Source: Comamonas aquatica NBRC 14918
GTDB taxonomy: Bacteria; Pseudomonadota; Gammaproteobacteria; Burkholderiales; Burkholderiaceae_C
DNA length: 64,000 nucleotides
Assembly: GCF_000739875.1 (NCBI RefSeq)
Contig: NZ_BBJR01000001.1
Span: 62,001-126,000, forward strand
Reading direction: 5' to 3'
The notes under the pieces were generated by a model. It was given only the letters and a program-made list of their open reading frames with translations, ran no database searches and had not been told where the DNA came from. The position numbers and the translations under genes are program-made. Of the stretch, positions 51,364-54,716 are shown piece by piece (the stretch's first letter is position 1; every line of letters begins with the position of its first letter).

Positions 51364-52524
51364 TCAGGCCGCCACGGCGGCAACGGCCTGGGGCTGCACC
51401 ACGCCGCGGCGTTTTTGCACGGCGCCCGACAGGCGATCCAACACCTCCAGCGTATCGTTCCAGCCGATGCAAGCATCGGTGATGCTCTGGCCATAGTGCA
51501 GGCCGCAGATCTGGTCCTTGCCGGGGGTGAACTTCTGCGCCCCTGCGACCAGGTGACTTTCCAGCATGACACCGAAGATGCTGCGCGAACCGGCTTCCAT
51601 CTGCGCCGCAATGTCGGCCACCACGTCCTTCTGGCGCTCGTGCTGCTTCAGGCTGTTGGCATGGCTGCAGTCCACCATCAGGCTGGCGGGCAGGCCGGCC
51701 TTGCCCAGGTCGGCACAGGCCGCCTGCACGCTAGCGTCGTCGTAATTCGGCGTCTTGCCGCCGCGCAGGATGACGTGGCAATCCTGGTTGCCGGCGGTGT
51801 GGACGATGGCCACCTGGCCGTTCTTGTGCACGGACAGGAAGTGGTGGCCATGGCTGGCGGACTGGATGGCATCGGTGGCGATGCGGATGTTGCCGTCCGT
51901 GCCGTTCTTGAAACCGATGGGCGCCGAGATGCCCGAAGCCAGTTCGCGGTGGATCTGGCTTTCGGTGGTGCGTGCACCGATGGCGCCCCAGCTGATCAGG
52001 TCACCGATGTACTGGGGCGAGATCACGTCCAGGAACTCGCTGGCCGCCGGCACGCCCAGACGGTTGATGTCGATCAGCAGCTGGCGGGCAATGCGCAGGC
52101 CCTCGTCGATGCGGTAGCTGCCGTCCAGGTAGGGGTCGTTGATCAAGCCCTTCCAGCCGACGGTGGTGCGGGGCTTTTCGAAGTACACGCGCATCACGAC
52201 TTCCAGCGTGTCCTTGTACTGCTCGCGCACATCGGCCAGACGGCGGGCGTAATCCAGCGCAGCCGCTGGGTCGTGGATGGAACAAGGTCCGACAATCACC
52301 AGCAGCCGGTCGTCGTTGCGCCCATGCATGATGTTGCGGATGGCGCGGCGCGTGTTGCTGACCAGCGACTCCACGGGTGTGCCTTGGATGGGGAAGAAGC
52401 GGATGAGGTGCTCGGGAGGGGGCAACACGGTAATGTCCTTGATACGTTCGTCGTCAGTCTGGCCAGTCTTTTGTACAGAGCTGCGATACCAAGCGTCGCC
52501 GGTGGAGTTGTTGTGAGCGTTCAT
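51364..52524 (-). CDS. aroG: 3-deoxy-7-phosphoheptulonate (DAHP) synthase, class I
   Basis: The enzyme condenses phosphoenolpyruvate and erythrose 4-phosphate, the first step to aromatic amino acids. The 386-residue protein has LLVIVGPCSIHDPAAALDYA near 74, EKPRTTVGWKGLINDPYLDG near 115, RTTESQIHRELASG near 183, VHTAGNQDCHVILRGGKTPN near 240 and LMVDCSHANSLKQ near 280 with metal-ligand residues. The C-terminal Ala/Val tail is variable. Which amino acid inhibits it cannot be read with confidence. Its leader encodes a Phe/Tyr/Trp-rich peptide followed by a terminator, so attenuation by aromatic amino acids is likely. Confidence 0.96.
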   Translation of the reverse strand: MNAHNNSTGDAWYRSSVQKTGQTDDERIKDITVLPPPEHLIRFFPIQGTPVESLVSNTRRAIRNIMHGRNDDRLLVIVGPCSIHDPAAALDYARRLADVREQYKDTLEVVMRVYFEKPRTTVGWKGLINDPYLDGSYRIDEGLRIARQLLIDINRLGVPAASEFLDVISPQYIGDLISWGAIGARTTESQIHRELASGISAPIGFKNGTDGNIRIATDAIQSASHGHHFLSVHKNGQVAIVHTAGNQDCHVILRGGKTPNYDDASVQAACADLGKAGLPASLMVDCSHANSLKQHERQKDVVADIAAQMEAGSRSIFGVMLESHLVAGAQKFTPGKDQICGLHYGQSITDACIGWNDTLEVLDRLSGAVQKRRGVVQPQAVAAVAA

Positions 52525-52565
52525 GTCTGCCTCGTGGTCCTGTGGAGTGTTGGAATAGATGGGTG

Positions 52566-52606
52566 AAAAAAAACCGCCGGGCTTTTCAGCTTCGGCGGTT
52601 TTTTGG
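52566..52606 (-). terminator. Attenuator terminator in the aroG leader
   Basis: On the minus strand AAAACCGCCG (52602-52593) and CGGCGGTTTT (52579-52570) form a perfect 10-bp stem with a 13-nt loop, ending in eight T residues. It lies 42 nt before the aroG ATG, not after a gene. GGCGG at 52645-52641, within the last codons of the leader peptide, can pair with the CCGCC of the first arm, giving a possible antiterminator. Confidence 0.85.
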
Positions 52607-52636
52607 AGGGTGTTCGTGTGTGCGAGCGCTTGCCTC

Positions 52637-52693
52637 TCATCCGCCTGGGACCGAGAACCAAAAGTAAAAATAGAAAGCGCTACGTACTTGCAT
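52637..52693 (-). CDS. aroG leader peptide, rich in aromatic residues
   Basis: The frame ATG 52693-52691 to TGA 52639-52637 encodes 18 residues: MQVRSAFYFYFWFSVPGG. Seven successive codons are aromatic (four Phe, two Tyr, one Trp). It is followed by a terminator hairpin and then aroG. This is the layout of ribosome-mediated attenuation: stalling at aromatic codons would leave downstream RNA free to form an antiterminator. AGCGCTT (52625-52631) and AAGCGCT (52675-52681) could form the competing 1:2 hairpin. No clear Shine-Dalgarno is seen. A possible TTGCAG-N17-TAAAGT promoter ends about 8 nt before the ATG, so the leader may be nearly leaderless. Confidence 0.85.
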   Translation of the reverse strand: MQVRSAFYFYFWFSVPGG

Positions 52694-52775
52694 GGCGAAA
52701 GACTTTAACACCAGGAATCGTGCACTGCAACACAACCCAGCACACACGATTCAGGAAAAAACCAAAAACACCTAT

Positions 52776-52811
52776 AAAAAAGGCTGATTCATCGAAACAA
52801 ATCAGCCTTTC
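52776..52811 (-). terminator. Intrinsic terminator after tldD
   Basis: On the minus strand AAAGGCTGATT and AATCAGCCTTT arms surround a 9-nt loop and are followed by TTTTTT. It closes the tldD transcript 38 nt past its stop, so the hairpin at 52566-52606 belongs to a separate aroG leader. Confidence 0.88.
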
Positions 52812-52848
52812 TAGCAATCAGCACAGGAATACTGCAAACAATTCCAAA

Positions 52849-54318
52849 TTAAGCCGTACCACCCACGGTCAACCCGTCGATGCGCATGGTCGGTTGCCCC
52901 ACCCCCACGGGCACGCTCTGGCCTTCCTTGCCGCAGGTACCTACGCCGCTGTCCAGACGCATGTCATTGCCGATCAGGCTGACCTTCTTCATGCACTCCG
53001 GACCGTTGCCGACCAGCGTGGCCCCCTTGACGGGATACTGGATCTTGCCGTTCTCCACCCAGTAAGCCTGGCTGGCCGAGAACACGAACTTGCCGCTGGT
53101 GATGTCCACCTGACCGCCGCCAAAGTTGGTGGCGTACAAGCCCTTCTTGATCGAAGCGATGATTTCCTGTGGATCCTTGTCACCACCCAGCATGTAGGTG
53201 TTGGTCATGCGTGGCATGGGCAGGTGGGCATAGCTTTCGCGACGACCATTGCCGGTGGGCTTGACGCCCATCAGGCGCGCATTCAATGCATCCTGGATGT
53301 AGCCTTTCAGGATGCCGTCCTCGATCAGGACATTCGCCTGCGAGGGACAGCCTTCGTCGTCCACGTTCAACGAGCCACGGCGATCGGCCAGCGTGCCGTC
53401 GTCCAGAATCGTCACGCCCTTGGCGGCCACACGCTGACCGATGCGGCCACTGAAGGCGCTGGATCCCTTGCGGTTGAAATCGCCTTCCAGGCCATGGCCC
53501 ACGGCTTCGTGCAACAGCACGCCGGGCCAGCCAGGGCCCAGCACCACGGTCATCTCGCCGGCAGGGGCGGGTCGGGATTCCAGATTGACCAAGGCCTGGT
53601 CGACCGCTTCGTTCACATACTCGGCAATCTGTGCATCGCTGAAATAGGCCAGGCCAAAGCGGCCGCCACCACCGGAAGAGCCCACTTCACGGCGCCCGCT
53701 CTGCTCTGCAATCACGGTCACCGACAGGCGCACCAGGGGACGCACATCAGCAGCCAGCGTACCATCCGCACGCGCCACCATCACCACGTCGTACTCGCTG
53801 GCCAGGCCGGCCATCACCTGCACGATGCGCGGATCCTTGCCGCGGGCCAGGGTTTCCACCTTGCCCAGCAAGGCCACCTTCTCGGTGCTGTCCATCGTGG
53901 CGATGGGGTCGAGGCCGGGATACAAGCTGCGCGAAGGCGCCACCTTGGCCTTGGGAATGCGCACCTTGCGCTCCTGGTGGTTGCCGGAGATGGCACGCAC
54001 AGCATGGGCTGCATCCAGCAAGGAGGCCAGCGAAATGTCGTCGGAATAGGCAAACGCGGTCTTCTCGCCACTGACGGCGCGCACCCCGACACCCTGGTCG
54101 ATGGAGAAGGAGCCGGTCTTGACGATGCCTTCCTCCAGGCTCCACCCCTCGGCACGGGTGTACTGAAAGTACAGATCTGCATCGTCCACCTGGTGAGCGC
54201 GGATTTCCGCCAGCGCACGCGACAGGTGGGTTTCATCCAGGCCGAAAGGCTCTAGCAACAGTTGCCGGGCCGTGGCCAGGCGCTCGATGGTGGGTTCGCG
54301 AGAGATCATGGTTGCCAT
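52849..54318 (-). CDS. tldD: Metalloprotease TldD
   Basis: TldD acts with TldE (PmbA) as a zinc protease; in E. coli it matures the microcin B17 precursor and cleaves the CcdA antitoxin. The 489-residue protein has the metal-binding segment [20 protein letters not shown] near 262 (HExxxH), [20 protein letters not shown] near 212 and the C-terminal [20 protein letters not shown]. Its partner tldE is not in the window. It follows the YegP-like gene. The start at 54318 is the longest; 54309 is possible. Confidence 0.95.
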
Positions 54319-54371: not shown

Positions 54372-54716
54372 CTATGCGGCCGCTGCGCTCTGGTCGTCCA
54401 GCGCAGCGTCCGCCGCATTCTTCATGACGGAGGCAATGCCGTTGTCACGTGCCACTCTGGAGGAATACATCTCGCTGCGGCCAATCACCTGACCATTCGT
54501 GGCCTTGAGCGTAAAGTAGGATGAGCCATCCTTGCCGTCGAGCTTGTCAAAGCGTGCCTCCAGAGGCCCATTCTTGCGCACCGACTCCACACCGTTCAAG
54601 GCGCTGGCCTTGGCCTCATACATCTCGCTGCTCAGAATGATCTGGCCGTTGACGGCATGGAGATTGAAAAAGAATTTTCCGTTCTTGGATTGCTTCAGCA
54701 CGTACTTGGCAACCAC
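54372..54716 (-). CDS. YegP family protein (two DUF1508 repeats)
   Basis: The 114-residue protein has two tandem units of about 48 residues, each ending in a shared motif: NGQIILSSEMY and NGQVIGRSEMY. Each unit is an antiparallel beta sheet plus helix in known structures. An Ala-rich tail of about 12 residues follows. The family function is not established. It is a single small gene between rodA and tldD on the same strand. Confidence 0.92.
   Translation of the reverse strand: MVAKYVLKQSKNGKFFFNLHAVNGQIILSSEMYEAKASALNGVESVRKNGPLEARFDKLDGKDGSSYFTLKATNGQVIGRSEMYSSRVARDNGIASVMKNAADAALDDQSAAAA

Follow-up and report, generated by a model that had tools for sequence, protein, structure and literature searches.

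The aroG gene of the window (by which we mean the whole stretch of 64,000 nucleotides analysed here) is very probably controlled by a ribosome-mediated transcription attenuator. The DNA in front of it holds the parts of such a device: a small leader ORF rich in aromatic control codons, an intrinsic terminator, an antiterminator computed to exclude this terminator and a protector helix (1:2). These parts are established by sequence analysis and computation, as are their conservation, their pairing and covariation, the placement of a -10-like motif and the association with AroG.

Organization of the aroG leader

A preliminary description of this DNA had reported, on the minus strand, an 18-residue peptide with seven successive aromatic codons, followed by a perfect 10-bp hairpin with eight T. 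The peptide is encoded at 52693-52637 (Table 1), and the hairpin is formed by AAAACCGCCG (52602-52593) and CGGCGGTTTT (52579-52570) through 6 G-C and 4 A-U pairs, with the eight T at 52573-52566. This run ends 41 nt ahead of the aroG ATG at 52524. The hairpin lies downstream of the leader stop codon as described, at a distance that we count as 34 nt and not 31. Two alternative pairings had also been pointed out, GGCGG (52645-52641) with CCGCC (52598-52594) and AGCGCTT (52681-52675) with AAGCGCT (52631-52625); both can be read directly in the minus strand and are conserved or covarying among relatives.

The upstream neighbour, which we take to be tldD in line with the preliminary description, had been credited with a terminator of its own. 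Inspection by eye does reveal a terminator-like hairpin behind this gene (52808-52800 with 52789-52781, six-T run at 52781-52776). Neither this hairpin nor that of the aroG leader was reported by the terminator scan of the window; both may have been missed because of its loop limit of 3-8. On the far side of tldD, a small minus-strand ORF with an internal duplication (54372-54716) presumably encodes a protein resembling YegP/DUF1508.

Table 1. Features of the aroG locus, in positions of the window
Feature	Position	Strand	Remarks
Leader ORF	52637..52693	minus	ATG to TGA, peptide MQVRSAFYFYFWFSVPGG, read directly; probably leaderless
Seven control codons, TTC TAT TTT TAC TTT TGG TTC	52655..52675	minus	within the leader ORF
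Putative -35, TTGCAG	52725..52730	minus	17-nt spacer; read from sequence
Extended -10, TGTTAAAGT	52702..52710	minus	8 nt ahead of the leader ATG
Region 1, AGCGCTT	52675..52681	minus	1:2 pairing test
Region 2, GGCGGATGAGAGGCAAGCGCT	52625..52645	minus	partner of region 1 or region 3
Region 3, CCCTCC...CCGCCG	52593..52610	minus	antiterminator partner and 5′ arm of the terminator
Region 4, CGGCGG and run of eight T	52566..52579	minus	3′ arm and tail of the terminator
aroG	51364..52524	minus	class I DAHP synthase, 386 aa, controlled gene; PF00793, E 6.4e-91
tldD	52849..54318	minus	upstream neighbour; own terminator-like hairpin at 52808-52776

Conservation of the leader peptide

As relatives we used the best 80 of the 585 loci that matched the AroG protein in a scan of contigs. 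By title they belong mostly to Comamonas, Acidovorax, Variovorax, Limnohabitans and other Comamonadaceae; with the window they make up 81 leaders (the window plus L004-L083), handled as one family set even though a few come from assemblies titled just 'Burkholderiales', 'Proteobacteria' or similar. Lack of conservation of the peptide codons had been named as evidence against attenuation. An aromatic small ORF, with 5-8 aromatic residues per eight, precedes aroG in 80/80 of these best relatives. The 81 leaders encode 55 different peptides, and ahead of GGCGG all of them contain Phe and Tyr codons and 80/81 contain Trp codons. In the 33 leaders of 18 amino acids within this set (window and best 80 of 585), the aromatic class is constant while residue and codon vary: position 10 is W in 22 and Y in 11, position 12 is W in 15, F in 11 and Y in 7, and position 13 is F in 18, I in 14 and V in 1. 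S14, G17 and G18 are invariant (33/33).

The aromatic run by itself is unusual yet possible, since a same-strand small ORF with seven aromatic codons out of seven arose in 1 of 5000 dinucleotide shuffles of the 324-nt gap between tldD and aroG. It is the retention of the leader in 80/80 relatives (best 80 of 585), not the run alone, that rules out a chance origin, which we set aside. Within its own genome the run has one exact match; two more, at 3 mismatches, are at the level of the reversed control.

The last aromatic codon begins 11-18 nt ahead of GGCGG in 73/81 leaders (window and best 80 of 585), and the remaining eight carry an extra aromatic codon just before (2) or after (6) the start of GGCGG. 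The reading frame of the GGCGG..GAGAGG stretch changes with the genus, giving PGG-stop, PAEER, PAAER or QADER, or GGREASA. Therefore, this stretch is kept as RNA. In 71/80 relatives (best 80 of 585) the upstream flank contains a tldD gene in the same orientation, at 27-1794 nt from the leader ATG and at 27-53 nt in eight of them.

Putative promoter and translation start of the leader

A -10-like motif, TGnTAnA[GT]T and mostly TGCTACATT, stands 6-8 nt ahead of an in-frame leader ATG in 81/81 leaders (window and best 80 of 585); in four of the 81 there is a further in-frame ATG, at a distance of 12 or 14 nt. A Shine-Dalgarno 4-mer precedes the leader ATG in 0/81 cases vs 68/81 for aroG itself in the same set. 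Because the extended -10 is so close to the ATG and a Shine-Dalgarno 4-mer is absent, the mRNA that carries the leader ORF is probably leaderless, and its 5′ end would fall at about the ATG given that the -10 ends 6-8 nt upstream. This predicted -10, present at the leader ATG in 81/81 (window and best 80 of 585), argues against a transcript beginning 3′ of the hairpin, which the preliminary description had named as evidence against attenuation. The -35 is weakly conserved across the 81 aligned upstream regions, and a consensus promoter scan of the window returned no sigma-70 site.

Three alternative helices

Pairing was examined in two alignments: A1, with 57 of the 81 leaders (window and best 80 of 585), and A2, with 58 rows made of 34 of the 81 plus all 24 leaders from other families described below. 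RNAalifold on the 57 leaders predicted the terminator alone, with zero covarying pairs, because the core is nearly invariant; the set was therefore widened to the other families, from whose leaders the covariation signal mostly derives. Removal of duplicates reduced 105 rows to 73 for the core pairing and to 90 for the second helix, and 81 leaders to 70 for the 1:2 test.

The GGCGG-T terminator occurs in 81/81 leaders (window and best 80 of 585). On A2, its six pairs are standard in 348/348 cells, which 0/500 shuffles match. One pair is G-C in 43 and A-U in 15 of the 58 rows; two-sided change is limited to this single pair, and 496/500 shuffles do as much. The antiterminator (2:3) joins GGCGG to CCGCC together with three flanking pairs. 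On A2, 85.3% of its 464 cells are paired and its covariation score is 0.125, neither of which is reached by any of 500 shuffles. Two-sided changes affect four pairs (13/500 shuffles reach this) and 22 cells (1/500), and there are 11 further pair types (22/500). Slid versions of the helix have at most 53.7% of cells paired; the version slid by +1 scores 0.098 vs 0.125 for covariation and equals the native helix in pair types. The last core pair is absent in 4/73 unique rows, and in leader L078 both sides are altered, GACGG facing CCGTC.

There seems to be a further part of the antiterminator, absent from the preliminary description, in which GAGAGG can pair with a CCTC-type sequence before CCGCC. 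Over 90 unique leaders this predicted helix has only a modest advantage over shuffled loops (mean z -0.98, with 86% of values below zero), and it is no better than them in L078, L097, L106 and L112. Median energies are -19.0 kcal/mol for 2:3 vs -17.9 kcal/mol for 3:4.

For the protector helix, the 1:2 duplex averages -14.4 kcal/mol in native combinations vs -12.8 kcal/mol when partners are swapped, a difference reached in 0/5000 permutations (70 unique of the 81 leaders, kinship uncorrected); 36% of the individual swaps are as good as the native partner or better. We then modelled the ribosome with an assumed footprint of 12 nt past the A-site base, on RNA ending before region 4. In the window, the computed probability of 2:3 is 0.85 for a ribosome placed on the first aromatic codon, 0.80 for one on the last, 0.01 with no ribosome and 0.00 for one on the stop codon. 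For 60 of the 81 leaders (window and best 80 of 585) it is above 0.5 when the first aromatic codon is occupied and for 70 when the last is, leaving 21 and 11, respectively, at or below this value; the counts above 0.5 are 8/81 without a ribosome and 0/81 at the stop codon. When the full leader is folded at equilibrium, the terminator is favoured whatever the state of the ribosome in 80/81, so the switch must be kinetic and decided during transcription. Known attenuators likewise choose their fold during transcription. Taken as predictions, these data support three mutually exclusive helices: the 1:2 protector, the 2:3 antiterminator and the 3:4 terminator.

Proposed mechanism and alternatives

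From the sequence and the computations we infer the transcription start, the stalling, the read-through and a sensing of all three end products, Phe, Tyr and Trp. Transcription would begin at the leader ATG or no more than about two bases from it, whereupon the leaderless ORF would be entered by a ribosome. When Phe-, Tyr- or Trp-tRNA is scarce, the ribosome would stall at the aromatic run and keep region 1 covered; region 2 (GGCGG..GAGAGG) could then join region 3 (..CCTC..CCGCC) ahead of the synthesis of region 4, and the polymerase would continue into aroG. When charged tRNAs are ample, the ribosome would reach the stop codon in or just past region 2, region 3 would join region 4, and transcription would end at the T run. 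If the leader is not translated at all, region 1 would sequester region 2 and termination would again be favoured. With a ribosome on the aromatic run, region 2 would remain free; with one on the stop codon, it would be covered.

Other explanations of the same elements have to be weighed. The ribosome might be arrested by the nascent peptide acting with a cofactor, for instance free Trp or Phe, as happens with TnaC, instead of by a lack of charged tRNA. A short hydrophobic peptide with S14, G17 and G18 fixed in 33/33 of the 18-aa leaders (window and best 80 of 585) would suit such a model. However, these C-terminal residues seem to be a side effect of the conserved RNA, given that in other genera GGCGG..GAGAGG is translated in a different frame (SSPAEER, PPAAER, SQADER) or the ORF continues past it (GGREASA). 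In addition, an arrest motif should tolerate neither the interchange of aromatic residues nor the small residues that break the run (YFFAYFWF). We consider peptide arrest very unlikely.

Slightly less probable still is that the hairpin merely terminates read-through from upstream, or forms the 3′ end of a small RNA, the aromatic ORF being incidental. The same-strand tldD at 71/80 loci (best 80 of 585), eight of them only 27-53 nt away, and the occurrence elsewhere of GGCGG terminators of similar type lacking a leader agree with this idea; yet in the window tldD already has its terminator-like hairpin, and leader, -10-like motif and terminator occur together in 81/81 (window and best 80 of 585) at any distance from tldD. 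We give equally little weight to a general sensor of translation, in which the 1:2 helix would tie termination to translation of the leader and the aromatic codons would only set the pace. The strong 1:2 pairing and the computed sequestration of region 2 would fit this, and so would the fact that leaderless translation is unlike SD-led translation. Against this model stand the Phe and Tyr codons before region 2 in 81/81 leaders (window and best 80 of 585), ahead of the first enzyme of the aromatic pathway. Attenuation by stalling at scarce aromatic tRNAs is thus the reading that we prefer.

Relation to known attenuators

The enteric attenuators pheL-pheA, pheST and trpL-trpE combine control codons with the 1:2/2:3/3:4 alternatives, sense one amino acid and have an SD-led leader. 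The aroG leader shares their logic, with control codons and three alternative helices, and differs in that each of them responds to a single amino acid, is SD-led and controls other genes. These enteric systems are named in PMC11802643.

The preliminary description knew of no attenuated DAHP synthase gene in Comamonadaceae. We found none either in the open literature searched; the principle of an attenuated DAHP synthase gene is, however, already known from aroR/aroF of Corynebacterium glutamicum (Neshat et al., 2014, cited in PMC11802643), where the attenuator had also been predicted (PMC4046766). There, transcription from the Phe-Tyr-Phe leader rises under Phe limitation and Tyr is reported to be without effect (PMC11802643). 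Like aroG here, this gene has a leader peptide with aromatic codons ahead of a DAHP synthase; unlike it, the host is an actinobacterium and the aromatic run is shorter and lacks Trp; the two are likened here by design. The trpL leader of Sinorhizobium meliloti (rnTrpL/peTrpL), whose RNA begins at the ATG of the leader ORF (PMC7298713), is a leaderless attenuator, as that of aroG probably is; in contrast to aroG, it precedes trpE(G) and encodes a Trp leader. Its leader RNA and peptide also act in trans. Ahead of aroF in Acholeplasma, uORFC-13-1 is a motif in which a terminator accompanies a predicted uORF that has one Phe codon or more (PMC8632094). It resembles the aroG leader in placing a uORF and a terminator before a DAHP synthase gene, whereas it belongs to another lineage, has an RBS, counts 24 examples and is a prediction only. 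The ilvB uORF motif of Corynebacterium, rich in Ile, Leu and Val codons (PMC11109978), also sets codons for several related amino acids before an enzyme of their shared pathway, here the branched-chain pathway, and the likeness drawn is again one of design. Attenuation of E. coli aroF has been hypothesised (according to PMC8632094), Shewanella aroF is listed as having an 'attenuator sensing tyr-tRNA' (PMC2659441), and putative attenuators precede a DAHP synthase-tyrA operon in Vibrio (PMC1173090). Other literature considered comprises PMC2864571, PMC1262725, PMC2965389 and PMC12125101.

The open literature that we searched gave no recognisable description of an aroG leader in this order; an earlier prediction of one is possible. 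A search of window positions 52000-53500 against Rfam 15 gave two matches to unrelated families (E 1.8 and 4.6), far under the gathering scores, and membership of an Rfam leader or T-box family was rejected, these being chance-level matches only. While this kind of mechanism is textbook, the aroG family is undescribed in the open literature searched; it would be an attenuator family without an Rfam 15 match, with mixed Phe/Tyr/Trp codons and a leaderless leader. It would offer a testable account of how entry into aromatic synthesis is controlled in numerous bacteria of a large order. The replacement of one aromatic residue by another between species amounts to a natural experiment on the tRNAs sensed, and the fixed spacing from -10 to ATG would suit the leader well to studies of leaderless translation coupled to transcription.

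Distribution of the leader

AroG relatives at E<=1e-60 are found in 224/300 genomes of the order. Outside the family of the window we inspected 40 regions, taken from a ranked listing, best first and then spread, and hence not at random. An aromatic leader is present in 24/40, in eight families (f3, f8, f10, f11, f12, f13, f32 and f40), and in the other 16 upstream regions a convincing leader was not found; two TTG-start ORFs with five aromatic residues each (L118, L119) were left out of the count. The element reaches beyond Comamonadaceae. Within the first 16 residues, all 24 leaders have F, 21 have Y and 11 have W, and Trp codons are therefore not universal.

A covariance model spanning region 2 to the terminator (R1), built from A2, matches 132/300 genomes of the order at E<=0.01. 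At E<=1e-6, 62/63 matches are directly upstream of a same-strand AroG gene, as established by coordinates for 51 and by tblastn in fetched DNA for 11. Since R1 derives from A2, 24 of these 62 (the window genome and 23 others) are recovered by construction; the other 38 are not themselves A2 rows, although up to eight of them, in the family of the window, could belong to species already represented by named rows. Leader candidates are weak at the AroG-linked L173 and L178, and also at L174 (1, 3 and 4 aromatic residues in 8, by automatic search).

Several weaker R1 matches are plain terminators. Seven of them, L166 and L167 (G268), L180 (G265), L182 (G095), L183 (G013), L185 (G253) and L188 (G342), were rejected, with no AroG in the fetched stretch and nearby ORFs of at most 3 aromatic residues in 8 (L188 by eye). 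L166, in the genome of the window itself (C103:182111-182202), is a GGCGG-type terminator like that of aroG, with leader and AroG absent, and seemingly an ordinary terminator; the match in G342 lies after what is presumably a chaperonin gene.

In genus g38 (L091, L092, L093 and L142; three genomes of 1.7-2.1 Mb) no leader was found before AroG, and the attenuator has apparently been lost there, to judge from these upstream regions. At L142 the end of tldD is about 64 nt from the AroG match. Among 274 genomes of the class, R1 gives 6 matches at E<=1e-5: three in the window's family, two in f63 and one false. The f63 loci (L186 and L187) are outside the order and have the aromatic leaders ARASFYFWYYFPKP and ARFYRWYYFPKP, with AroG behind. 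L186 has a -10-like TGTTATCAAT shortly upstream of a start codon.

DAHP synthases behind the leader

In the genome of the window, PF00793 matches two proteins besides aroG: one is a paralogue, on C52, and the other, a 298-aa frame on C63, is presumably the related KDO8P synthase. No aromatic leader was found at the paralogue, a second class I DAHP synthase (L001, C52:32785-33654), or at trpE (L144) and pheA (L145); small ORFs near these genes have at most 4 aromatic residues in 7.

In a midpoint-rooted tree of 27 AroG proteins, with 12/24 inner branches unresolved, the AroG of the window falls in a fully supported group of 13 rows, two of which lack the leader; 8 leader-bearing rows fall outside this group. 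Leaders are seen before distinct DAHP synthase clades in different families (L132, L133, L134, L138, L147, L148). With the second AroG type, the leader still follows tldD in some cases (L134, L138). Genome G158 carries both types, with a leader at the second type only. Leaders on both AroG types, together with the pattern in G158, suggest that the enzyme may have been exchanged behind a standing leader, or that an old duplication took place. A wider reading, which we find conceivable and on balance slightly doubtful, is that the leaderless ORF works as a three-input OR switch, in which a lack of Phe-tRNA, of Tyr-tRNA or of Trp-tRNA would each suffice to open aroG. A single RNA switch older than the family would then set the entry into the shikimate pathway in Comamonadaceae, and would have been retained before distinct DAHP synthase clades.
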